Positions 32,524-46,724 of a DNA stretch of 53,903 bases are shown in pieces (within the stretch, counting starts at the first letter, position 1; each line of letters starts with the position of its first letter). The notes beneath the pieces were generated by a model, which was not told the origin of the DNA, did not search any database, and saw nothing but the letters and a program-made list of their open reading frames with translations. The stretch covers positions 1 to 53,903 of the forward strand of contig CACZZL010000015.1 of NCBI GenBank assembly GCA_902785605.1, given 5' to 3'. Made by a program: the position numbers and the translations under genes. Origin of the DNA: an uncultured Bacteroidales bacterium (lineage in GTDB: Bacteria > Bacteroidota > Bacteroidia > Bacteroidales > Paludibacteraceae).

Positions 32524-32529
32524 ATTTTA

Positions 32530-32596
32530 CGTAAGTATGCCGAAGGAACACTCCCGGACACGTCGTCCCTGAGAATTCCCGCCTTCCGGTATGCTT
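32530..32596. repeat. REP-like palindromic element, copy B
   Basis: This segment begins CGTAAGTATGCCGAAGG and ends CCGCCTTCCGGTATGCTT. The ends pair with each other and enclose an inner hairpin GGAC-ACGTC-GTCC. It is about 80% similar to 40315-40382. The two copies follow unrelated genes, the hallmark of an interspersed repeat. Confidence 0.7.
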
Positions 32597-38400: not shown

Positions 38401-40107
38401 TTCGCTTCGGCGGAGCCTAATGCCCTCAAAGTGGCAGAAGGAACGACCGTTATCGAGAGCCTCAAACTCTATGCCCATGCAACGGATATCGAGGTAGCAG
38501 AAGTAGGTAAGGTCTTCAACTACGACCTGACCCAACGCTCTTTCTATCCGGAGGATCATGAACTCATCTCCATCACCGGCGGTACGTATAATGGAACACA
38601 GCACGGATGGCAGTTCAGCGCCAATGGCACGATTACGATTGAGGTAGCCGGAAACGCCCTCATTAGTTTGGCGCTCTGCAAATACGGCAATGCCAGCACA
38701 CTCGCTTGCGTGGACGCGAATAGCAATCCTGTCGGAGAACCGATCACTTTGCCGGTAGCTGCAGACGGAAACAAAGGTGTGTTCCGCTATACCGGTCCTG
38801 CCACTACGCTCACTTTCACCCTCTCTAACGGTGGTTACGTACACGCTGTCAAGGTGTATAACCTGGAGCAGGTACCGACCCTCAATGAAGCCGGTTACTA
38901 CGTCATCGGAGCAGGTGATGCTGCCGGTTTGGTGTTGGCCTTGGAGACGGCACAGCCTTACGATAAGATCTTCCTTCCAAATGGTATATATGACCTCGGT
39001 ACGGCAACTCTCACCCATATCGACCAGACGGTCAGCCTGATCGGTCAGTCGATGGAAGGTGTACTCATTCAGAACCATCCGCTGGCAGCCGGTATGAATA
39101 ATGCCGAGACGTTCTATATCGGTGCCGATAATGTCTATCTGCAAGACCTCGCTATCCGCTGCGATGTGTCCTATGAAGGCAGTTCAGCCAGTGGAGTAGG
39201 TATCGCCGTACAGGTGCGCGGAGACAAGAGCATCATGAAACAAGTAGATCTGCAAGGTAACCAGGATACGTATTATTCTTCTTACCCGGCTACCGCACGC
39301 GGTTATTTCGAAGACGGACGTATCGAAGGTACGGTGGATTATATTTGCGGTGGCGGCGATATGTGGTTTGAGAATACCTTGTTATACAATAATGCACGAG
39401 CGCATGCAGATGTTATCCTCGCGCCTTCGACGGCCGCAGAGACCGTTTACGGCTACGTGCTCAATAACTGTACCATTGACGGTGATGTTAGTCAAGCCGG
39501 AAGATGGAATCTCGCACGCGGTTGGCATAACAGCCCTGCCGCTACCTTCCTCAATGCTACCTGTCTCATCGCTCCGTCGGCACAAGGTTACACCTATATG
39601 AGCGCTGACCTCCCCGTCCGCTTCCATGAGTATAACACGCATCTGGAAGACGGTACGCCGGTTACAGGTCATAACCTGAACGGACTCAACTATGCCGCTA
39701 ACTCCGATGCTATCTATCTCGAAGCTATCGGTAATTACACCTATGATAACGTGGTCAAAGGAGCCGACAACTGGGATGCACGCGCTATCGCAGCGCAGGC
39801 TGTCGCTAATCCCAAAGTTATCGATGACGATGCGGCTTACCTCATTGAGAACGAAGGTACTTTCGTTGCCCTACTCAAAGGTAGTGAACTGAACCTTGCT
39901 TCCTACATCGGCAAGACCCTCCGCAAAGCCAATGCACGCGGCGGCTTCGGTGCTCCGGCTACGATTGAAGATACGGAGACAGGAGTGGAGAATGTAAATT
40001 TGAAATCTGAAATCATAAATCATAAATTTATCCGTAACGGACAGTTACTGATAGTAAAAGACGGCAAGATCTATAACGCTATGGGACAAATAGTAAATAG
40101 TAAATGA
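35494..40107 (+). CDS. Secreted CE12 acetylesterase + CE8 pectin methylesterase fusion
   Basis: Predicted to strip acetyl and methyl esters from pectin outside the cell. The 1537-residue product has a signal peptide (MKKIFSLFVAMMLCLPMMQG). An SGNH esterase of the rhamnogalacturonan acetylesterase type has HTIGDSTMAEYD with Ser near 30, LIQFAHNDEG and DKTHTNAMGG near 250-258. Several beta-sandwich modules follow, including an Asp/Glu/Pro linker near 585-595 (EPGDEPGDEPGEE) and two similar units with TYNGTQHGW/NYNGVQHGI. A right-handed helix pectinesterase has GNQDTYY near 1256, GTVDYICGGG near 1279 and NLARGW near 1339, matching PME catalytic Asp and Arg motifs. The tail FIRNGQLLIVKDGKIYNAMG ends it. 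It is divergent from the AraC-type regulator. Confidence 0.88.
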   Translation: MKKIFSLFVAMMLCLPMMQGAIKVHTIGDSTMAEYDESTTDKRGWGMYLGSFFDPAFVTVNNRGKSGADTRGFYTGAAYWPSVKSQMQAGDYLLIQFAHNDEGTVTYGMDNLEYAAYCAANSLPAPTDARGTNPQTTYRDMLRAFIDEARALGVNPVLVGPICRAYFQGNNIRRNGQHDLGDKFSKIENGVLYENQSLPAGDSTMSYVKAMKVVAAEKNVPFIDLTEATRQLYLSYGETQCLSLLFCEGDKTHTNAMGGNLVARAAAQLLKNAGVLAEHITIPTDITANPNAIEIGETYCGVAQNKEFLLTGYGLEPANGTVALTATANLQISLDKVNYASTANATYSGGSMFQKVYVRANYSTGGEQLDTIYATSGEHVIAIPVSATAISLDGGAEVSATWAINARPVPAAVVEGPISAAFAMSNMACMDYSKNYFTDGDETGIVLARFHNSANGSSRTPWPAGEIDENASRYIDFAITAPEAMDVRITGISMDVTADATSTMCYHINTGFGDAFTNVMTVYEKRNLPNRAIEHVNLTPTLTVKAGKTLHVRVLPWHDYGEEKDSKYICLRNVVISGQAFAAEPGDEPGDEPGEETNEHTFGMAADADHTNHTLTAPSLLPSTSDKVAVATVPATYAVLTNRNVYHGDATAYTAPVTYRNLANNVTIKTQADAESSDAYVAFKMTIADGYVFNASEINTDLYLDNKSNWFYEFIIEGANGLPLFKSATQTIGAGQSGTGHKATLALESETVKNLKGEITVKFIYWINSGSTLLAIKDFNIKGTVEEAAARTFTDFKVEFRDNPYVVLLPENHQLPEGVTIAGTNYNGVQHGIYGGTVTVPVDGPVKFTIGACQFSKTDITVKKNGVNFATFSNVGPCGEQKPNYNQFVTWTYNVEEAATLTFEFGNQTFVPYFFAEACDYIAQAMVSYYDTDGTTLLGSEIVDGGSALVYAYSVSDVTVPAGKAFRGWFASAEPNALKVAEGTTVIESLKLYAHATDIEVAEVGKVFNYDLTQRSFYPEDHELISITGGTYNGTQHGWQFSANGTITIEVAGNALISLALCKYGNASTLACVDANSNPVGEPITLPVAADGNKGVFRYTGPATTLTFTLSNGGYVHAVKVYNLEQVPTLNEAGYYVIGAGDAAGLVLALETAQPYDKIFLPNGIYDLGTATLTHIDQTVSLIGQSMEGVLIQNHPLAAGMNNAETFYIGADNVYLQDLAIRCDVSYEGSSASGVGIAVQVRGDKSIMKQVDLQGNQDTYYSSYPATARGYFEDGRIEGTVDYICGGGDMWFENTLLYNNARAHADVILAPSTAAETVYGYVLNNCTIDGDVSQAGRWNLARGWHNSPAATFLNATCLIAPSAQGYTYMSADLPVRFHEYNTHLEDGTPVTGHNLNGLNYAANSDAIYLEAIGNYTYDNVVKGADNWDARAIAAQAVANPKVIDDDAAYLIENEGTFVALLKGSELNLASYIGKTLRKANARGGFGAPATIEDTETGVENVNLKSEIINHKFIRNGQLLIVKDGKIYNAMGQIVNSK

Positions 40108-40123
40108 CAAAATCGTAAATAGT

Positions 40124-40254
40124 ATGAAACGAGTATATTTTTCTCCGGTTATGGAGACCTATCCCATAAATCCGGCATCCGTTCTCTGCGCCTGTACACA
40201 GGCACACCCTTTGGTGTGGATAATAACGCTACAAATGACCTGATCATTTCGTAA
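40124..40254 (+). pseudogene. Small MKxxYxxP-type peptide gene with frameshift
   Basis: The start frame reads MKRVYFSPVMETYPINPASV and LCA, then drifts to a stop at 40241-40243. Shifted frame gives YTGTPFGVDNNATNDLIIS and TAA at 40252-40254. Joined, they make a roughly 43-residue peptide of the MKKxYxxP..E...LCAS type, common and uncharacterised in Bacteroidales. The break (131 nt, not a multiple of three) lies around 40190-40200. It may be a one-base sequence error or real decay. Confidence 0.55.
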
Positions 40255-40281
40255 GTCGTATAACGTATTGTTATCCCAAAA

Positions 40282-40314
40282 GGCGGTTCACGTTCAGCGT
40301 GAGCCGTCTTTTTT
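40282..40314 (+). terminator. Terminator downstream of the pectin esterase
   Basis: GGCGGTTCACG (40282-40292) pairs with CGTGAGCCGTC (40298-40308) around TTCAG, followed by six T residues. Confidence 0.9.
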
Positions 40315-40382
40315 CGTAAGTATGCCGGAGGCACACTCAGGGACACGTTGTCCACTGAGAAATCCCGCCTTCCGGGGTACTT
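40315..40382. repeat. REP-like palindromic element, copy A
   Basis: The outer arms AAGTATGCCGGAGGC and GCCTTCCGGGGTACTT enclose the inner hairpin CTCAGGGACA-CG-TTGTCCACTGAG (one bulge). It matches 32530-32596 with several changes that keep pairing. It sits directly between a terminator and the start of the next gene. Confidence 0.7.
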
Positions 40383-40383
40383 T

Positions 40384-40608
40384 ATGAATAATTATCAGTT
40401 CTTAGTATCAGAGCGCGAGCAGGGTAGGTTCGATGAATACATGCATCGCGGATTGATCAGTTCCAATCTTTTTATGTGGATGGAGGTTTATGATTATCAT
40501 CTTCTCCATCCCAAAGTAAGTACATGGTTTGTAGCCAATACATTTGGTATAGACCAAAAACATGTGCGCAATATTTATGCCTACATGGAGAGCGGTGAAA
40601 AATTGTGA
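40384..40608 (+). CDS. Small putative helix-turn-helix protein
   Basis: Not recognised by family name. The 74-residue product starts MNNYQFLVSEREQGRFDEYM and contains LLHPKVSTWFVANTFGIDQK followed by HVRNIYAYM. This has the spacing of a helix-turn-helix (VANTFGIDQKHVRNIY as recognition part). I chose ATG 40384, right after the palindromic repeat, because residues encoded upstream belong to that repeat. It is the first gene of the small-gene cluster and could be its regulator, which is an inference. Confidence 0.6.
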   Translation: MNNYQFLVSEREQGRFDEYMHRGLISSNLFMWMEVYDYHLLHPKVSTWFVANTFGIDQKHVRNIYAYMESGEKL

Positions 40609-40645
40609 GGACTTTTTTGTCCTCGGTCATGTCATCAAAAAACTC

Positions 40646-40653
40646 TACCTTTG
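40646..40653 (+). promoter_or_regulatory. -7 promoter element before the 107-residue gene
   Basis: TACCTTTG at 40646-40653 is followed by GCACC, as in other promoters here. The -33 region is poor (TTTG at 40616-40619). A small hairpin GAGGAC-T6-GTCCTC (40607-40624) overlaps this -33 position. The resulting leader is about 175 nt. Confidence 0.6.
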
Positions 40654-40732
40654 CACCGCCTTTCGAAAGATAGGCGTAGCAGATTGTTTTCTCGCAAAAG
40701 AAAAAAGAAGCAAAAAAGAAAATCTAAAAATG

Positions 40733-40822
40733 TACAAAAGGGTGTTACGTACTGCGCGTATGAGTAGCACCATATGTAACACCCTTTTGTAACACCTTTA
40801 TGTAACACCTTTATGTAACACC
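40733..40822. promoter_or_regulatory. Leader hairpin plus 13-bp-spaced GTAACACC repeats
   Basis: TACAAAAGGGTGTTAC (40733-40748) is perfectly complementary to GTAACACCCTTTTGTA (40776-40791), giving a 16-bp stem. The 3' arm core GTAACACC recurs at 40776, 40789, 40802 and 40815, exactly 13 bp apart. The last copy ends 12 nt before the ATG at 40835. The single 5' arm could pair with any of the four copies, so alternative folds near the ribosome-binding region are possible. Confidence 0.75.
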
Positions 40823-40834
40823 AATTAATAATTT

Positions 40835-41158
40835 ATGAATGATTTTCAACCATTATGGGCGCTGCTTCGTGAACATGGTTCGAGCGCCAAACGAGAAACC
40901 GAATGTGCGGCACTTTGGGCAAGCTACACGCCTGAAGTGCAGCAGCGAGTGTATGACGCCATTCGCTCCAAACTGGAGCAAGGCAAGTTTGTTCATTACG
41001 ATCCTCTGCGTGCCATGGAGGAGAATGCGCGACCTCCACGGCTACAGACTCTCAGTTACGCCGATTATTACGCCCGCTATCACACCACCGAACCCCGTGA
41101 CGGCTGGCAAATGGCAAACCCGACGGGACAGAAGGTCATCTATGTCCGAAACGGATAA
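40835..41158 (+). CDS. Conserved hypothetical, 107 residues
   Basis: Function unknown. The product begins MNDFQPLWALLREHGSSAKR, has a helical middle (TPEVQQRVYDAIRSKLEQGK), then KFVHYDPLRAMEEN, SYADYYARYHTTEPRDGW and ends NPTGQKVIYVRNG. The helical half and the YADYY...NPTGQ...YV ending look like a family I associate with small accessory modules of Bacteroidales, but I cannot name it. No signal peptide or membrane segment is visible. It is preceded by the repeat-rich leader. Confidence 0.65.
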   Translation: MNDFQPLWALLREHGSSAKRETECAALWASYTPEVQQRVYDAIRSKLEQGKFVHYDPLRAMEENARPPRLQTLSYADYYARYHTTEPRDGWQMANPTGQKVIYVRNG

Positions 41159-41194
41159 AACTTTGTCAATTGTCGTCGGATCGCATCCGACAAA

Positions 41195-41232
41195 TATTCA
41201 TTATTCATTAATCATTATTCATTATTTTTATT
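41195..41232. repeat. Short-period repeat ATTCATT
   Basis: ATTCATTATTCATTAATCAT followed by TATTCATTATTTTTATT fills the gap before the ATG at 41233. It is another junction tract with a unit of about 7-8 bases. Confidence 0.65.
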
Positions 41233-41553
41233 ATGGCAAATTGTTTATTTCCCGCCGGTATTGAAAAGGTCTCCGGCACACTCTCGAAATCAACTATCGT
41301 CACCTCCAAAGGTGTCATCACCAAACGCGTCATTGCTTGTGTTCGCAACGGCAAACAAAAGATCTACATCCGCGAAGACAAACCCCGTTGCACTAAACCT
41401 ACCGAAGGTGAGATTGCCGCTCGTTCATCCTTCGCATTCATGGCTTCCGAAGTATCACGCCGCATGGCCAATGGCGACAAGCGTCCACGCAAACTCATCT
41501 GGGCAGAAGTCAAAGCCGAATTTAAGAAAGGAGACACCCATGCCGAAGTATAG
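41233..41553 (+). CDS. VSG-L-K family small protein (member 1)
   Basis: Function unknown. The 106-residue product starts MANCLFPAGIEKVSGTLSKS, then has VIACVRNGKQKIYIRED, KPTEGEIAARSSFAFMASEV and RMANGDKRPRKLIWAEVKAE. The opening G-I-x-x-V-S-G-x-L-x-K followed by a YxR strand and a helical segment is also seen in the proteins at 42906 and 43349. It is basic, with no signal peptide or membrane segment; nucleic-acid binding is possible but unproven. The next gene overlaps it by 14 nt. Confidence 0.65.
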   Translation: MANCLFPAGIEKVSGTLSKSTIVTSKGVITKRVIACVRNGKQKIYIREDKPRCTKPTEGEIAARSSFAFMASEVSRRMANGDKRPRKLIWAEVKAEFKKGDTHAEV

Positions 41554-41779
41554 TCCGACCGCCTTCCAACTCAAATCAAAGGATGGCAATCTTCGTGCAT
41601 TGAGAGGACGATTAGGAAACTTCATCTTTAGAACACGAAACGGAAAAATCTTCGCCTTCTACAAGCCGGTTCTGGGCCGATGCAATCCCGATGCAATCCC
41701 GGTCCATCTTCGTCAGATAACGACCAAACTCAATTTAGAAATAGTAAATCGTAAATCGTCAAATCGTATATCATCATGA
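41540..41779 (+). CDS. Small basic hypothetical protein, 79 residues
   Basis: Function unknown. The product begins MPKYSPTAFQLKSKDGNLRA and continues LRGRLGNFIFRTRNGKIFAF, then VHLRQITTKLNLEIVNRKSS. The N-terminal third repeats the theme 'x-x-G-N-F-I-F-R-T-R-N-G-K' of strand-rich small proteins. Its last codons come from a short-period DNA repeat (41739-41772, TAGTAAATCGTAAATCG). The start overlaps the previous gene by 14 nt and the stop overlaps the next start (ATGA), so translation is likely coupled. Confidence 0.6.
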   Translation: MPKYSPTAFQLKSKDGNLRALRGRLGNFIFRTRNGKIFAFYKPVLGRCNPDAIPVHLRQITTKLNLEIVNRKSSNRISS

Positions 41780-41931
41780 CCACGCAAGAAATCCACGACC
41801 GGCTCAACCATCGAGCCGGACAAATCATCCCCATCAAGCATCTGCTTACCCTCATGGAGCGCTTCGAAGAAATCCACGGGCAACCCGTCTCGGACAACAA
41901 TATAGAAGCCTTTCTACGCTACGCGTGGTGA
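41776..41931 (+). CDS. Small hypothetical protein, 51 residues
   Basis: Function unknown. It reads MTTQEIHDRLNHRAGQIIPI and continues KHLLTLMERFEEIHGQPVSD to EAFLRYAW. The start codon overlaps the preceding stop as ATGA. The length, two amphipathic helices and the coupling support a real gene despite its size. Confidence 0.6.
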   Translation: MTTQEIHDRLNHRAGQIIPIKHLLTLMERFEEIHGQPVSDNNIEAFLRYAW

Positions 41932-41958
41932 TGAGTTGGAAAACTTTTTGGTAAAAAA

Positions 41959-41991
41959 TTTGCAAAACCGCCAAAATTGTGGGCATATTTG
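41959..41991 (+). promoter_or_regulatory. Possible promoter of the holin-like/DUF5675 genes
   Basis: TTTG (41959-41962) and CATATTTG (41984-41991, one mismatch to TAnnTTTG) are 21 nt apart, 28 nt before the ATG at 42019. Confidence 0.55.
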
Positions 41992-42018
41992 CACCAGATT
42001 TTAAAATTTCACACGACT

Positions 42019-42210
42019 ATGCGATCAGATCACCTGCAACTAATCACCGCCACAGTGCTCTCCATCGGCGGACTTATATTACTCTTCTGCGGCATCTTCA
42101 TTGACCCGCAAGGACAAATCCACGAGACTTTGCTCGTTGCCTTTGGCGAGACCGCGACATTTGCAGGTGCTCTGTTTGGCATAGATTATGTGTACAAACG
42201 CAAACAATAA
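42019..42210 (+). CDS. Two-helix membrane protein, holin-like
   Basis: The 63-residue product starts MRSDHLQLITATVLSIGGLI, with a first membrane segment (LITATVLSIGGLILLFCGIF), then IDPQGQIHETLL, a second weaker segment (VAFGETATFAGALFGI) and a charged end DYVYKRKQ. Small proteins of this pattern precede lysozyme/amidase-like genes in Bacteroidales phage-derived modules, and a DUF5675 gene follows 2 nt downstream, so a holin-like role is plausible. I chose ATG 42019 because it lies downstream of the putative promoter and starts a normal membrane protein. Confidence 0.6.
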   Translation: MRSDHLQLITATVLSIGGLILLFCGIFIDPQGQIHETLLVAFGETATFAGALFGIDYVYKRKQ

Positions 42211-42212
42211 CC

Positions 42213-42650
42213 ATGTATTACAAACTGATCCGCGAAAACAGTACGTCCTCTTCTTCGAGAGTAAGCTCGAAGGCCGTTCCCGGCAAGTTGTACCGAGTCT
42301 CGCACTACATCAACAAGCGTACCGGTCTCCTCGTCGAGCGTCTGCACTATATCTGCGACACGCTTGAGAACGCCGACTACCTCGTTCCCGCCTTGATCTA
42401 CAAAGTTCAAGTCACGCAGTCACCACGTTTCAAACGCCTGCTGCCCATCCTCATCCAAGTACCCGGACGTTCCGGCATACGATTCCACCGCGGCTCTCAA
42501 CCTGAGCACAGTAAAGGCTGTATCCTTATCTCCGCCAGCATGGAGCAATCTCTCACCGCCCGCTGGCTTTCCGAGCAATCCGCCTCAGACGAGACCCGCC
42601 TCGAGATCTGTAACAACATTAATTATTACCGCAATGAAACAAGAATCTGA
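42213..42650 (+). CDS. DUF5675-family protein (phage lysis-module type)
   Basis: The 145-residue product contains the family pattern: RLHYICDTLENADYLVPALI, then YKVQVTQSPRFKRLLPILIQ and VPGRSGIRFHRGSQPEHSKG followed by CILIS. The GxRxHxG...SxGC core resembles murein L,D-transpeptidase-like sites (His, Ser/Gly-Cys) and this family is often found in phage or phage-derived lysis modules. The catalytic role is inferred. The N-terminal KLIRENSTSSSSRVSSKAVP is low-complexity. The usual G in the RIHxG motif is kept (FHRG). It overlaps the next small ORF by 17 nt. Confidence 0.7.
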   Translation: MYYKLIRENSTSSSSRVSSKAVPGKLYRVSHYINKRTGLLVERLHYICDTLENADYLVPALIYKVQVTQSPRFKRLLPILIQVPGRSGIRFHRGSQPEHSKGCILISASMEQSLTARWLSEQSASDETRLEICNNINYYRNETRI

Positions 42651-42741
42651 AGAAAAAGACTGGGTAAAGGTTTTGTATGAAGTCATTCTCAAAATCCTTA
42701 CCTTGGGCTTCTACCACATCGAGAAGCACCGAAAAAACTAA
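42634..42741 (+). CDS. Tiny smalltalk-like membrane peptide, 35 residues
   Basis: The peptide MKQESEEKDWVKVLYEVILK continues ILTLGFYHIEKHRKN. It has a short hydrophobic/amphipathic helix (VLYEVILKILTLGF) between charged ends. Bacteroidales lysis-like modules commonly hold such 30-36-residue 'smalltalk' peptides next to an amidase. It overlaps the DUF5675 stop by 17 nt in another frame. The call rests on size, context and helix. Confidence 0.5.
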   Translation: MKQESEEKDWVKVLYEVILKILTLGFYHIEKHRKN

Positions 42742-42832
42742 CCCTATTGTTTAACTCTGTTCCCTCTCATCGAGCTTAGAGGGGCTCTCCTTACCCGAGA
42801 CGTAAACCGAAGCCGAAGGCTGTTTGCGGATC

Positions 42833-42904
42833 GGAGAGCGAGAGCATCCGAGTACTCCCTACTAAAACGGAGTTTTGGTACATGTACGAGGATAGCTCGC
42901 GCGA
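42833..42904. repeat. Structured bracket repeat, copy 1
   Basis: GGAGAGCGAGAGCATCCGAG is followed by the stem ACTAAAAC-GGA-GTTTTGGT, the perfect palindrome GTACATGTAC and GAGGATAG. It is about 80% identical to 43772-43854. Copy 1 ends two bases before the ATG at 42906. Confidence 0.75.
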
Positions 42905-42905
42905 A

Positions 42906-43295
42906 ATGGCAAAAGCAACCTACGCCCCGATGTTTGAGACCGTCTCTGGCGCTCTGAATAAGATCGACAAGAAGTCCCCGCACGCGGCAGATCAGAAGAT
43001 GGTTTTAGCCACGCACCGTAAGGCACCCACTACGAGCAAAGACTGCTCCCGCGTCTACCTCCGAGGCCTCAGTTCCGTGTCTCGCTCCACGCAACCTACC
43101 GCCAAAGAGCAGACTGTCCGGACGAAGTTTGCAGCAGTATCCACTGCCGTCAACACGCGACTCAACGACCCGACCAAGCAAGCAGCCGACCTCGCAGCTT
43201 TCAACGCCCAGAAAGACACCGCTGGTGGCAAAACCACCATGCGTTCCTACCTCTGGATGCTTGAATCAACCGCCTACGATCAAGCCAACGGCTAA
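42906..43295 (+). CDS. VSG-L-K family small protein (member 2)
   Basis: Function unknown. The 129-residue product starts MAKATYAPMFETVSGALNKI, has MVLATHRKAPTTSKDCSRVY, VSRSTQPTAKEQTVRTKFAA and ends MRSYLWMLESTAYDQANG. It is a clear paralogue of the next gene (same VSGAL.K start, RVYLR, TKE...RFAAV, K-TM-SYLW) and a more distant relative of 41233. I chose ATG 42906 over 42882 because the paralogue starts the same way and the upstream codons lie in the bracket repeat. Confidence 0.7.
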   Translation: MAKATYAPMFETVSGALNKIDKKSPHAADQKMVLATHRKAPTTSKDCSRVYLRGLSSVSRSTQPTAKEQTVRTKFAAVSTAVNTRLNDPTKQAADLAAFNAQKDTAGGKTTMRSYLWMLESTAYDQANG

Positions 43296-43297
43296 AA

Positions 43298-43335
43298 CAC
43301 CCCTTTAACACTTTAACAGTTTAACAATTTAACCC
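43298..43335. repeat. Short-period repeat TTTAACA
   Basis: ACCCCTTTAACACTTTAACA followed by GTTTAACAATTTAACC fills the spacer between the two paralogues, with a unit of about 8-9 bases. Confidence 0.65.
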
Positions 43336-43348
43336 CAATCTAATCACT

Positions 43349-43735
43349 ATGGCAAAAGTAGAATGGAGTGCCGGTATTGACTCTGTATCCGGCGCATTGA
43401 GTAAACCTGGTAAGAACGGTCAACACCGTTGTGCGAAGATGCTGTTGGGCACGCACCGCGTAGCGGAGACGGAGAACCCCAACTGCAACCGCGTGTATCT
43501 GCGTAAAAAAGTAACCCGCTCGACTCCGGTGACGACCAAGGAGATGCGTATCCGCGTACGCTTCGCCGCTGTCGCAGCAGCAGTCGCTGCCCGTAAGGAC
43601 AGCCTCGAGTACGCGTCGTCTGACCAGGCAGCGTTCCTCGCGCAGAAGGACTCTGCGAACGGCAAAAAGACCATGAAGTCCTACCTCTGGTCCGTCTGTG
43701 CCGCTGCCTATGATGCTGAACATCCGCAAGGATAA
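43349..43735 (+). CDS. VSG-L-K family small protein (member 3)
   Basis: Function unknown. The 128-residue product starts MAKVEWSAGIDSVSGALSKP, has KMLLGTHRVAETENPNCNRV, VTRSTPVTTKEMRIRVRFAA and ends MKSYLWSVCAAAYDAEHPQG. It is about as long as the preceding paralogue and aligns along its full length, so this is a tandem duplication. Both are basic, cytosolic-looking proteins. The pair is bracketed by the structured repeats at 42833 and 43772. Confidence 0.7.
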   Translation: MAKVEWSAGIDSVSGALSKPGKNGQHRCAKMLLGTHRVAETENPNCNRVYLRKKVTRSTPVTTKEMRIRVRFAAVAAAVAARKDSLEYASSDQAAFLAQKDSANGKKTMKSYLWSVCAAAYDAEHPQG

Positions 43736-43771
43736 GTTCAGCATGGGGTCCCCGGAAATTTTAATTTTTGG

Positions 43772-43854
43772 GGAGAGCGGAGCACACCCGAGTACTTACT
43801 ACCTGAACGGGGTTTAGGTACATGTACGAGGGTAGTGTCCGCGAGGAGCACCCG
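43772..43854. repeat. Structured bracket repeat, copy 2
   Basis: GGAGAGCGGAGCACACCCGA is followed by the stem ACCTGAAC-GGG-GTTTAGGT, then GTACATGTAC and GAGGGTAG. Compared with copy 1 the stem has changed at several positions yet still pairs throughout, which suggests a selected RNA or DNA structure. Confidence 0.75.
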
Positions 43855-43872
43855 CAAGGCTAATGGCTAACG

Positions 43873-43905
43873 AAAGATAGGAGAGCGTGATGCTCTCCTA
43901 TCTTT
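43873..43905. terminator. Bidirectional terminator
   Basis: AAAGATAGGAGAGC (43873-43886) pairs perfectly with GCTCTCCTATCTTT (43892-43905) around GTGAT. It lies between the convergent genes 43349-43735 (+) and the GH53 gene (-). Confidence 0.9.
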
Positions 43906-43928
43906 ATGTATGATAGCCCCTTATCGGC

Positions 43929-45266
43929 TTACTCCGTCTCTGCTCCGGTGAGGGTGTAGGTGCGGCCGTTGCGCTCGATGAGGAGTTGGCCGTCACGCAG
44001 GAGTTTATGGGTCATCGGTCGATGGTCATTGACCGTTTGATCGATCGATTCGGGGGTGGCAGCGAACTTACCCAGGTAATAGGGCGCGCAGACATCGGCA
44101 GCCGTCTTGTCACCGGATACGTTTCCGGTCTTATTGATGGCATGACCGGAAGTGGTACTTTGCTCGTTCCAGAAACCGCGGTTCTGCCATGATTTGATAA
44201 CTAAACGGCTGTTGGTGGTCCAGTTGACATAATCCCCGTTTCCGGCTTCTTCCGGGAACCAGTAAGAGATACCATCTACATTGGACAGCGGCTTGAGAGC
44301 ATCAACCAAATCTTTGACAAAATTGTATTGCCCGGCAACAGAGCACGGCCAAACATCTCGCGTGTCAAAACTAACGCCTTTCGTCGGCCAGTTTTGGAAG
44401 TTATACGCGCACTCTACGATATGTACACGCTTATTTGGGAAGAGCGTTTTGAGGTTCTTGAGGGAGTTGACGAGGTTGTTCTTATCCGTTTTGTCAGCCA
44501 CCTGTTCGGAATTCAGGTAACCGTGCCAGAAGGGGTAGTAACTGAGTCCGATGATATCAAAATCCAGGTTGTCCTGGACCAGTTTATTGTAGTAATAGGA
44601 GTTATATCCGGTGTTAGAGGGTCGATCGGTATGTATGATGATCTGCGCGTTCGGACACACTTCGCGAACGGCATTGCATCCGGCATGGAGCAGACCGAGG
44701 TATCCGGTCCAGTTATCCCCGGCTTTGTCGTAGGGGTGCACCTGGATGCCGCACAGACCATACATGATCTCGTTACCCACTTGTACCAAATCCGGTGTGG
44801 CTCCGGCCGCTTTGAGCGTCGTCAGCACGCGGCGTGTGTAAGCCGCTACGCTATCTGCCATCGCAGCATCCGAGGCGCCTTTCCATGCCGCAGGTGCCTG
44901 AATATGCGTGGCATCTACCCAGGTGTCGGAATAATGAAAATCCAACATGAAATACGCTCCTGCCGCTTTGATGCGTTGGCCCAATTCCGTCACAAACGCC
45001 AAATCCTGACAAACGGAGGGGTTGAGTGTCCCGTCTTGGTCTGCTTTAGTCGGGTTGACAAAGATGCGTACACGGAACGTGTTCCAACCGCAATCTGTTA
45101 TTGCCCATGCGATCAAATCGTTGATTTTCGAGCCATCCACATCTTTGTAGTACGATAAATCTTTCTCATACAGCGGCAAGGTAGAGATGTCGCCGCCTAC
45201 GTAGCGCGTCTGCGCCTGTGCACATACGCACATGAGTGCGCAAAATAGTAATAAGGTCTTTTTCAT
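43929..45266 (-). CDS. GH53 endo-beta-1,4-galactanase with C-terminal tail
   Basis: Predicted to cut beta-1,4-galactan side chains of pectin outside the cell. The 445-residue product has a signal peptide (MKKTLLLFCALMCVCAQAQ) and a TIM barrel with ITDCGWNTFRVRIFVNPTKA and YFMLDFHYSDTWVDATH. The acid/base Glu lies in VQVGNEIMYG and the nucleophile Glu in HIVECAYNF, both as in GH53, with ISYWFPEEAGNGDYVNW near the end. It closes with DQTVNDHRPMTHK and the tail LLRDGQLLIERNGRTYTLTG. The in-frame ATG at 45335 lies upstream of the -7 promoter box, so I chose 45266. Confidence 0.92.
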   Translation of the reverse strand: MKKTLLLFCALMCVCAQAQTRYVGGDISTLPLYEKDLSYYKDVDGSKINDLIAWAITDCGWNTFRVRIFVNPTKADQDGTLNPSVCQDLAFVTELGQRIKAAGAYFMLDFHYSDTWVDATHIQAPAAWKGASDAAMADSVAAYTRRVLTTLKAAGATPDLVQVGNEIMYGLCGIQVHPYDKAGDNWTGYLGLLHAGCNAVREVCPNAQIIIHTDRPSNTGYNSYYYNKLVQDNLDFDIIGLSYYPFWHGYLNSEQVADKTDKNNLVNSLKNLKTLFPNKRVHIVECAYNFQNWPTKGVSFDTRDVWPCSVAGQYNFVKDLVDALKPLSNVDGISYWFPEEAGNGDYVNWTTNSRLVIKSWQNRGFWNEQSTTSGHAINKTGNVSGDKTAADVCAPYYLGKFAATPESIDQTVNDHRPMTHKLLRDGQLLIERNGRTYTLTGAETE

Positions 45267-45274
45267 AACGGGCA

Positions 45275-45306
45275 CAAAGATACAACAAAAATTGCAAATA
45301 TGCAAA
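45275..45306 (-). promoter_or_regulatory. Promoter of the GH53 gene
   Basis: On the minus strand TTTG (45306-45303) and TATCTTTG (45282-45275) are 20 nt apart, just upstream of the ATG at 45266. Confidence 0.85.
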
Positions 45307-45321
45307 AAAAACGTTAAAAAA

Positions 45322-45353
45322 TTTGCATATGTCAAAAAAAAGCAGTACTTTTG
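45322..45353 (+). promoter_or_regulatory. Promoter of the 432-residue lipoprotein gene
   Basis: TTTG (45322-45325, in TTTGCATATG) and TACTTTTG (45346-45353) are 20 nt apart. Its -33 element lies 15 bp from that of the divergent GH53 promoter, so both may share a regulator. The leader to the ATG is about 65 nt. Confidence 0.85.
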
Positions 45354-45425
45354 CCGCTGATTTGTGTGTGTTTTGAAGAAAAATCGATCAAATTAACAAA
45401 ATAACAATTAACAAATTTTGGAATT

Positions 45426-46724
45426 ATGAAGAAATTTTTTGCAATCATGGCTGCAGCGCTGGTAGCGTTCAGCTTTGCATCTTGTAAGGGCGGCGGCAAC
45501 GAGCCGGAGAACGAAGCTTACAAGATCGAGATCACTGACATCACTGCTAAGGGAGCGACTATCACGGTTACCCCGGTGGACTCTACTGTTACCTATTATT
45601 GGGATGTTCTCGAGGCAACAGAGGCTGCTAAGCTGACTGACGAGCAAGTGGGTGCTTATCTCAAAGAGTATCTGGAGGAGGCTGTTGAGTATTATAAACA
45701 ATACTACGGCTATGACGCAACCCTCGCAGATTTCCTGCTCAAAGGAGAAAACTCTTATTCTTACACCAAGCTGGAGTCCAACACGGAGTACACGGTAGTA
45801 GCTATCGCATTGGATGCTAACGGTGCATCCAGCGGCAAGGCTGCTCGTAAGAACTTCAAGACGCTGGAGCTGAAAGAAGATCCGGTTCCGGCAGACATGA
45901 CGTTTGAGATCGCTGCAAGCGATATCACATTCTCTTCGGCGAATATTACAGTTAATCCGTCGAACACAACGGCTACCTACTACTGGAATATCTATAAGAC
46001 CGCTGCGATCGCAAGTATGAGCGATGAAGAGCTCTGCGCAGCTATCAAGGAGGACATCGAGTACACGATCGAGTACTACGCTTATTTCGGCTATGAAATC
46101 GGCTTCGAGGATTTCTTGTCTCAGGGTGCGGATTCGTACGAGTACGATGAACTGGATGCCAACACGGCTTACACCGTTATCGCTGTAGCGATGGGTACAC
46201 TCGGTACTACCAACGGTGCAGTTGCTAAGTACAACTTCTCGACTCCGGAGATCGTTGCTGAGAAAACTGAGGATATTACGCTTACCAACGCTCGAATGAA
46301 TGACGCTTGTGACGCATATGGTTGGTGGCAGTTGATGGCTGCAAACACTGATTCTACTACCTATATCACCATATCTCCGAATGAGGCTGCTGCTGTAGAG
46401 GGTAGCTATTCGATCGATGATATGGATGCTGACTACACCTACATCCTCTTAGATAAGCAGGACCAGTATGCATTCGCAACGCTCGATATAGAGATTGCTG
46501 TAGAAGGTGAAACCTTTGTGCTCACCGGAACCGGTATTGCTATGAACGCAGTTCAGTACAACTTCAATATCAGTGGTGATGTAGAGGTTCTGGTTAAGGA
46601 AGCGTCAGCTCCGGCTAAGGTTGCTCCGGCTAAGGTTGCTCCGGTTAAGAAGGACGCTAAGATCATCAAGAAAGTAAATCTTGAGAAGACTGCAAAGCGC
46701 TCTGAGAAGCTTTTCAACCTCTAA
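45426..46724 (+). CDS. Lipoprotein with two related Fn3-like modules
   Basis: Function unknown. The 432-residue product has a lipobox signal (LVAFSFASCKGGG, Cys near 20), then two similar modules. The first is at about 31-150 (YKIEITDITAKGATITVTPV...TVTYYWDVLE...YGYDATLADFLLKG). The second is at about 155-275 (FEIAASDITFSSANITVNPS...ATYYWNIYK...FGYEIGFEDFLSQG). Each ends with an 'N-T-x-Y-T-V-I-A-V-A' strand. A third beta domain follows, and a C-terminal APAKVAPAKVAPVKK stretch and a Lys-rich end. It is anionic in the modules and basic at the tail. Probably surface or periplasmic. It lacks the tail motif of its neighbours. Confidence 0.8.
   Translation: MKKFFAIMAAALVAFSFASCKGGGNEPENEAYKIEITDITAKGATITVTPVDSTVTYYWDVLEATEAAKLTDEQVGAYLKEYLEEAVEYYKQYYGYDATLADFLLKGENSYSYTKLESNTEYTVVAIALDANGASSGKAARKNFKTLELKEDPVPADMTFEIAASDITFSSANITVNPSNTTATYYWNIYKTAAIASMSDEELCAAIKEDIEYTIEYYAYFGYEIGFEDFLSQGADSYEYDELDANTAYTVIAVAMGTLGTTNGAVAKYNFSTPEIVAEKTEDITLTNARMNDACDAYGWWQLMAANTDSTTYITISPNEAAAVEGSYSIDDMDADYTYILLDKQDQYAFATLDIEIAVEGETFVLTGTGIAMNAVQYNFNISGDVEVLVKEASAPAKVAPAKVAPVKKDAKIIKKVNLEKTAKRSEKLFNL

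Follow-up and report, generated by a model that had tools for sequence, protein, structure and literature searches.

The described systems closest to the locus reported here are the lysis cassette (holin, endolysin and spanin) of temperate Bacteroides and Porphyromonas phages, the phage satellites of the P4 or PICI type and the colicin-type release operons. The locus is a cluster of ten small open reading frames (ORFs), g1 to g10, all on the + strand at positions 40384-43735 of a stretch of 53,903 nucleotides, hereafter the window, which comprises positions 1 to 53,903 of contig CACZZL010000015.1 from an uncultured Bacteroidales bacterium of the Paludibacteraceae (assembly GCA_902785605.1). 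Like the phage cassette, it has a protein of the holin-like g6 family beside a peptidoglycan hydrolase, and a sister copy encodes what we read as a lipoprotein or transmembrane protein of unimolecular spanin (u-spanin) type; it differs in having no structural genes, in using a DUF5675 protein as the hydrolase, in being joined to genes of a protein family here called VSG-L-K, and in occurring in many copies per genome. With the satellites it shares the small size, a replication-initiator-like gene, phage-type genes without a structural set and several copies per genome, whereas no integrase, terminase or capsid-remodelling gene is recognised and the lysis-type genes are its own. Colicin-type operons likewise place small protein genes beside lysis genes, but in the present cluster no toxin or immunity gene is recognised, and a holin-like protein and a wall hydrolase replace the lone lysis lipoprotein.

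On balance, and with moderate confidence, we read the cluster as one of many copies of a phage-derived replication-plus-lysis element without an integrase, mostly restricted to one genus, that selection maintains and that resembles a phage satellite or a domesticated cassette for release. The likeliest origin, we lean to think, is a phage-derived satellite-like or once-mobile element, which may be or have been mobile rather than purely domesticated. It would combine a replication or copy-control part (g1, g2 and an iteron-like array), a lysis part (g6, g7 and a small membrane peptide or lipoprotein) and several basic VSG-L-K proteins. If this is true, a single genus of gut Bacteroidales maintains, under selection, many lysis-and-replication cassettes with a protein family of their own, a reservoir of programmed lysis, and perhaps of DNA release, that the family libraries used do not recognise. 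Among the papers listed in a literature search, PMC10434189 and PMC6231650 included, none describes such a module, in keeping with the suspicion of an undescribed system voiced in an earlier note on this DNA.

Gene content, order and spread of the cluster

The earlier note had described nine coupled genes; the cluster is real and holds ten (Table 1), the number to which the note's own list also sums. The overlaps it gave were found again, namely 14 nucleotides between g3 and g4, an ATGA junction between g4 and g5 and 17 nucleotides between g7 and g8, and the genes may form one operon. When the ten proteins were scanned against family libraries only g7 clearly matched Pfam and PHROGs (phrog_1501, E 6e-6); NCBIfam gave zero matches above its cut-offs. 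In agreement with the earlier note no integrase, capsid or transposase was found among these ten proteins in the same scans, nor was a terminase. Its suggestion of a role in defence fared worse. The small gene cluster, lysis-type genes and variable gene content would suit an anti-phage abortive lysis or other defence module, but none of the ten proteins matched the PADLOC defence models at E<=0.01, on which ground this explanation was rejected, and the multicopy state and the replication-type genes argue otherwise; we regard it as extremely improbable.

The module recurs as a unit. Searching a named collection with the longer type of VSG-L-K protein (VSG-long) gave 191 relatives, the best 80 of which were kept as loci; the presence of VSG in all of them is thus by selection. 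Counts of gene order, ORF clusters and BLASTP homologues use 48 of these 80 loci, picked for their upstream sequence. By BLASTP, every one of the ten genes has a homologue, in unchanged order, in L106, a locus from another metagenome-assembled genome (MAG) of another species; L030 matches g2-g10, also in order. Co-occurrence elsewhere, which had been proposed as a check, is thereby borne out. The recurrent same-strand order runs from an HNH gene through a Gp157-like or WYL_2 gene, a gene of the replication-initiator-like family G2, short VSG proteins and a small helix-turn-helix (HTH) protein, the holin-like gene, DUF5675 and a lipoprotein or g8-like peptide to VSG-long, with some parts absent in some loci and the lysis-type genes sometimes 3' of VSG-long. 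The WYL_2 (E 2e-17) and HNH (phrog_959, E 1.4e-8) assignments in sister modules are library matches, and the labels Gp157-like and HTH are our own reading. By ORF cluster, G2 occurs in 36, the lipoprotein in 34, DUF5675 in 29, the holin-like protein in 27, HNH in 21, the Gp157-like protein in 12 and g8 in 11 of the 48 loci, two of these clusters taking in one opposite-strand ORF; cluster 0, labelled VSG, is a single-linkage cluster that includes HTH-like proteins of about 75 residues, and its 153 ORFs are not a VSG gene count. Two sister modules also carry an AAA_25 ATPase.

Across all 80 loci the marker genes lie close to VSG-long: on the same strand, from -6.5 to +1.2 kb, holin-like genes are found in 27 loci, DUF5675 in 31, the lipoprotein in 46, G2 in 36 and HNH in 20, as against 1, 1, 0, 4 and 2 loci, respectively, outside that interval. 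A lysis-type gene is near VSG-long in 42 of the 43 loci that have more than 3 kb upstream. At the genome level, VSG-long and G2 go together (both in 19 of 37 same-genus genomes, VSG only in 4, G2 only in 1, neither in 13; Fisher p 1.4e-5, a guide only, since the test ignores kinship).

In the genome of the window itself, a profile built from seven long VSG proteins gave 14 matches at E<=0.001, in about ten places, and the window and at least seven of the other places (on C5, C7, C9, C1, C11, C13 and C17) have further module genes nearby; the g10 protein gave 15 matches at E<=1, several of them at contig ends. The VSG-long profile matched 23 of the 61 genomes searched, all of the same genus (23/37) and with up to 25 matches per genome, and none of 24 genomes of other families. 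With a larger profile, 5 of 81 genomes of the family matched, that is, 4/4 of this genus and, weakly, 1/77 of other genera, and at the class level a short-VSG profile matched 1 of 197 other genomes, weakly and across a stop. VSG-L-K is thus a multigene family whose members belong for the most part to one genus. The record titles of the loci name Bacteroidales or Paludibacteraceae MAGs, many of them from goat, sheep, cattle, yak or deer gut, and those named RUG are presumably from rumen, so the carrier is apparently a gut bacterium of ruminants; one record is labelled Lachnospiraceae, perhaps a mis-binned contig.

Table 1. Features of the cluster and its surroundings, with positions in the window; fractions out of 48 refer to sister loci.
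Feature	Positions	Strand	Description
Iteron-like array	40775-40822	+	TGTAACACC x4 at 13-nucleotide spacing
g1	40384-40608	+	74 residues; open frame; HTH-like small protein; homologues in 3/48, E 3e-9 to 4e-6
g2	40835-41158	+	107 residues; C-terminal part of replication-initiator-like family G2; BLASTP homologues in 13/48
g3	41233-41553	+	106 residues; short VSG-L-K; A10 profile 4.4e-32 (g3 itself in profile)
g4	41540-41779	+	79 residues; very basic, isoelectric point 11.5; VSG-like N-terminal pattern (alignment A1); homologues in 5/48, <=90% identity
g5	41776-41931	+	51 residues; ATGA overlap; homologues in 7/48, identical in L030
g6	42019-42210	+	63 residues; holin-like, Bacteroidales phage type; 27/48
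g7	42213-42650	+	145 residues; DUF5675, peptidoglycan-hydrolase-like, candidate endolysin; Pfam PF18925 E 7e-15; 29/48
g8	42634-42741	+	35-residue amphipathic or membrane-type peptide; homologues in 11/48, identical in L030
Hairpin copy a	42832-42905	+	ends at g9 start codon; covariation; model 98.6 bits (member of model); fold z -3.3
g9	42906-43295	+	129 residues; VSG-long, type 'MAKATYAP'; omega 0.08-0.17
g10	43349-43735	+	128 residues; VSG-long; C-terminal half homogenised with other copies in genome
Hairpin copy b	43771-43845	+	model 80 bits (member of model); fold z -4.4
VSG-long 3'-end remnant (EHPQG stop)	43846-43863	+	sequence read directly; five codons

Lysis-type and replication-type genes

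A lysis-type function is predicted with good confidence from homology and gene position, which supports the phage lysis type that had been proposed for this module. For the g6 protein there are matches in 73 phage records (53 Bacteroides, 18 Porphyromonas and 2 'Bacteriophage sp.'), 68 of them with at least 80% query cover and all below 60% identity; in the one record inspected, of a Porphyromonas phage, the matching gene is annotated as hypothetical and is followed by an annotated endolysin. The g6 family also occurs in 20 viral contigs. Among the seven that were read, L184 and L198 carry, immediately 3' of the g6 homologue, an amidase-like gene and then a lipoprotein resembling a unimolecular spanin; a spanin-like gene is present in L185, and the remaining four show neither; the names amidase and spanin are again our reading and not library matches. 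By the same reading one copy in the genome of the window (L024:1754-2152) has a u-spanin-like lipoprotein or transmembrane pattern similar to that of L184, and lipoprotein or u-spanin-like genes occur in sister copies, no spanin being recognised in the window copy. Size, hydrophobicity and position suggest that g6 is a holin; none of the records inspected gives the family that name.

The g7 gene lies directly 3' of g6, and its DUF5675 motif is intact, with the H, G and C of EHSKGC invariant in 20/20 aligned sequences; we take this H..GC motif to be L,D-transpeptidase-like. DUF5675 matches occur in 54 phage records, none of them reaching beyond 80% of the query; microviruses and crAss-like phages annotated 'transpeptidase' are among these records. 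The DUF5675 profile had zero matches in the PDB. A likeness to smalltalk proteins (NF033879), noted earlier, is seen in a sister copy and not in the window: the one sister lipoprotein scanned, of L037, reached 21.3 bits (E 1.7e-4), below the curated cut-off of 24.7 bits, whereas g8 was not recognised by the model. The same model found nothing in the genome of the window and gave any match in only 3 of 61 genomes; the match in G002 adjoins a VSG-long match. Were the operon switched on, g6 would open the inner membrane and g7 cut the wall, and the cell would lyse; such lysis is what the predicted functions suggest.

Concerning replication, an N-terminal winged helix/HTH gives four of the long G2 proteins their matches to phage replication-initiation families (phrog_270), with best E from 4e-7 to 5e-5. 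A short G2 profile led by g2 of the window aligns with the long G2 profile over the latter's C-terminal part (E 8e-16, probability 98.6%), and g2 is therefore without the HTH. The g1 protein, which had zero family matches in the library scans, looks like an HTH protein and may supply the HTH that g2 is without. Membership of G2 in 36 of 48 loci comes from a single-linkage chain, direct BLASTP with g2 giving 13 of 48. Against viral contigs the long G2 profile gave no conserved stretch and HNH a single weak match; against phage records neither gave a result.

Upstream of g2 lies an array of four iteron-like TGTAACACC repeats, with an inverted partial copy, GTGTTAC, about 93 nucleotides upstream of g2. 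The same motif is found upstream of G2 genes in five loci (the window, L032, L099, L106 and L081), and of the 15 sites that it has over about 1.30 Mb of fetched DNA, 12 sit within 100 nucleotides upstream of a G2 gene. Tandem repeats before G2 genes in general have a median score of 9.5 versus 7.0 (p 6e-7), many of them being A-rich runs, and strong arrays (score >=18) are rare, 3/34 before G2 versus 30/680. Because strong arrays are rare and many repeats A-rich, the iteron finding is limited to one G2 subtype. A g2-type protein may bind this array, and would control, or replicate from, that site.

VSG-L-K proteins, selection and insertion sites

The earlier note had recognised three VSG-L-K paralogues without a role it could name. 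The paralogy of g3, g9 and g10 is upheld (g9-g10 48% identity; g3-g10 27%, E 0.001), and the profiles of long and short forms are homologous at E 5e-17. The family is not wholly orphan: the short profile aligns with the N-terminal 62 columns of DUF6266 (PF19781; E 1.5e-5, probability 79%). DUF6266 proteins here are about 200 residues long, VSG-long gives no support (E 0.056, probability 1%), and at the Pfam gathering score neither g3, g9 and g10 nor any protein of their genome matched. In a same-genus genome, a protein of 428 residues (L221:454-1737) matches DUF6266 with its N-terminus below cut-off, and has a relative in one phage record of 10 kb.

The C-terminal halves of VSG-long genes are homogenised within genomes. 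Over 70 genes (65 of the 80 loci plus seven own copies, minus L050 and L095) the nucleotide identity of C-terminal halves is 0.82 within and 0.61 between genomes (75 within-genome pairs), and that of N-terminal halves 0.70 and 0.63, label permutation giving p 0.0005 for both halves, the floor of the test. In the genome of the window five copies have C-termini 0.82-0.91 alike and N-termini 0.51-0.77, with g9 and the C11 copy outside the homogenised group (0.52-0.59), and by eye the N-terminal types are met again in several MAGs. The homogenised C-termini probably result from gene conversion, which would explain why contigs end inside VSG genes. Since contigs often end there, the family is probably under-counted in metagenome assemblies. 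The proteins are basic (isoelectric point 9.8-10), show no signal peptide by eye, and may bind nucleic acid; coming from the same gene cluster, they could be released with, or bound to, the element's DNA.

This polymorphism invites the reading of VSG-long proteins as bacteriocin-like toxins freed by the lysis genes, their N-terminal types setting target specificity. Lysis-type genes are indeed co-encoded with a polymorphic small protein whose N-terminal types recur across MAGs and whose C-terminal halves resemble one another more within a genome than across genomes, but no immunity-gene pattern was noticed, there is no credible toxin-family match, and the constant and variable halves are the reverse of those of most polymorphic toxins; we consider this highly improbable. 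Distinctly unlikely, in our view, is also a tiny mobile element in which an iteron replicon with its own lysis genes would use a transfer particle or nucleoprotein built from VSG-L-K, with no known capsid or integrase. Assembly of such a particle would be the task of the shared C-terminal half, matched to its genome, and the N-terminal types would supply the variation. A packaging or capsid-remodelling gene was found neither among the ten proteins nor in the sister proteins scanned; of the latter, just one small HTH protein, from L074, matched a terminase small subunit, at E 0.07.

Ordinary prophage remnants, in which early and lysis genes have outlasted the structural genes and have no present function, would account for the holin-like, DUF5675, HNH and replication-initiator-like genes, all of phage type. 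Parts of the module do decay, as seen in hairpin-plus-VSG-tail remnants (below) and in some in-copy stop codons; the VSG matches of L034, L043 and L094 have in-frame stops and were left out of alignment A3, itself a chosen subset. The selection data speak otherwise. Of the 13 gene pairs compared, nine have an omega (NG86) of 0.01-0.18, two of these with a synonymous divergence (dS) close to 1 or higher; such values indicate purifying selection and therefore make plain prophage decay unlikely. The same gene order is kept in other species, and VSG relatives were not found in the viral contigs or phage records searched, which one would not expect if the genes were left over from common phages. 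The genes appear functional and not decayed, the evidence of selection being good for the genes tested, and we hold the remnant explanation rather unlikely.

Unlikely, too, is a domesticated host cassette for altruistic, explosive-lysis type release of DNA or protein, with VSG proteins binding the released DNA. Its attractions are the multicopy state, the retained lysis-type genes, the basic co-encoded proteins and a precedent, as PMC8131026 and PMC4834629 describe DNA release by holins or endolysins in other bacteria. For such a cassette the replication-type genes, iterons and HNH would be superfluous, the DNA binding of VSG is conjecture, and the places of insertion vary. Flanks were compared for 67 loci, the window and nine own copies (77, one without a comparable ORF, leaving 76): in 46 of them the downstream neighbour family is found at no other flank. 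Downstream of the window module lies a GH53 gene; of 46 genomes with a GH53 match ten were read, L174 ending soon after GH53, and in none of the nine readable relatives does the module follow GH53, nor is the next gene ever that of the window (L177 and L179 share theirs). Module positions so turn over among genomes, which counts in favour of the satellite-like element. The two tyrosine recombinases of the genome, at C11:42883 and C16:27497, are away from the VSG matches.

Several observations weigh against the satellite-like, selected element that we favour. The remaining 30 of 76 flanks do share a downstream neighbour family, 20 at >=75% identity, which fits vertical inheritance of sites, some clearly being one site (L045/L054/L073 and L061/L088), and neither an exact empty site nor element ends were found in the flank and GH53 comparisons. 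The module is variable, with at least three of the five marker families in just 26 of the 43 loci with more than 3 kb upstream. The initiator match is confined to the N-terminal HTH absent from g2 of the window, and tandem repeats upstream of other G2 genes are just mildly enriched. The absence of VSG from the viral, phage and plasmid records counts here as well, and VSG had zero matches in the PDB. Lastly, the omega comparison covers 13 pairs without g1, g5 and g8, in which g3 versus L030 gave 0.93, two further pairs were saturated and the g4 pair gave no estimate.

Hairpin element and other observations

Two copies of an interspersed hairpin of 74 nucleotides flank g9 and g10 (Table 1). Its structure is supported by covariation, 8 of 24 pairs having changed on both sides, and 90.6% of cells are paired, against at most 49% when slid; single folds have z from -0.7 to -4.4. 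The model matched same-genus genomes, 30 of the 61, and further copies in the genome of the window are L121/L129 (C21), L128 (C19) and, weakly, L130 (C3). Of 26 matches read, all in VSG-chosen loci, 10 are at a start codon, 8 between VSG-long and a VSG 3'-end remnant and 8 elsewhere, one apparently inside an open frame of C21 that we take to be rdgB-like. The element resembles the Rickettsia palindromic elements. A known RNA family was rejected, Rfam having zero matches at E<=1 in 39000-45500, and so was an integron cassette: attC-type core sites were not seen by eye in the hairpins, which also lie inside an open frame and between unrelated genes.

The VSG remnant 3' of copy b, within which the region delimited in the earlier note ends (43854), may have arisen when an insertion or recombination event copied the VSG-long 3' end. 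Remnants of about a dozen codons follow the downstream hairpin in seven other loci (L032, L037, L092, L060, L106, L034 and L052).

REP-associated-transposase-like proteins are encoded upstream of some sister modules (L062:32-1126, also L043, L052 and L100; ORF cluster 29), the L062 protein that was scanned matching Y1_Tnp below cut-off. A 66-nucleotide repeat, 88% identical, is present upstream of g1 (40310-40375) and at 32525-32589, no third copy being found in the genome. Between the module and GH53 there is a perfect inverted repeat of 14 nucleotides (43873-43905), possibly a terminator.

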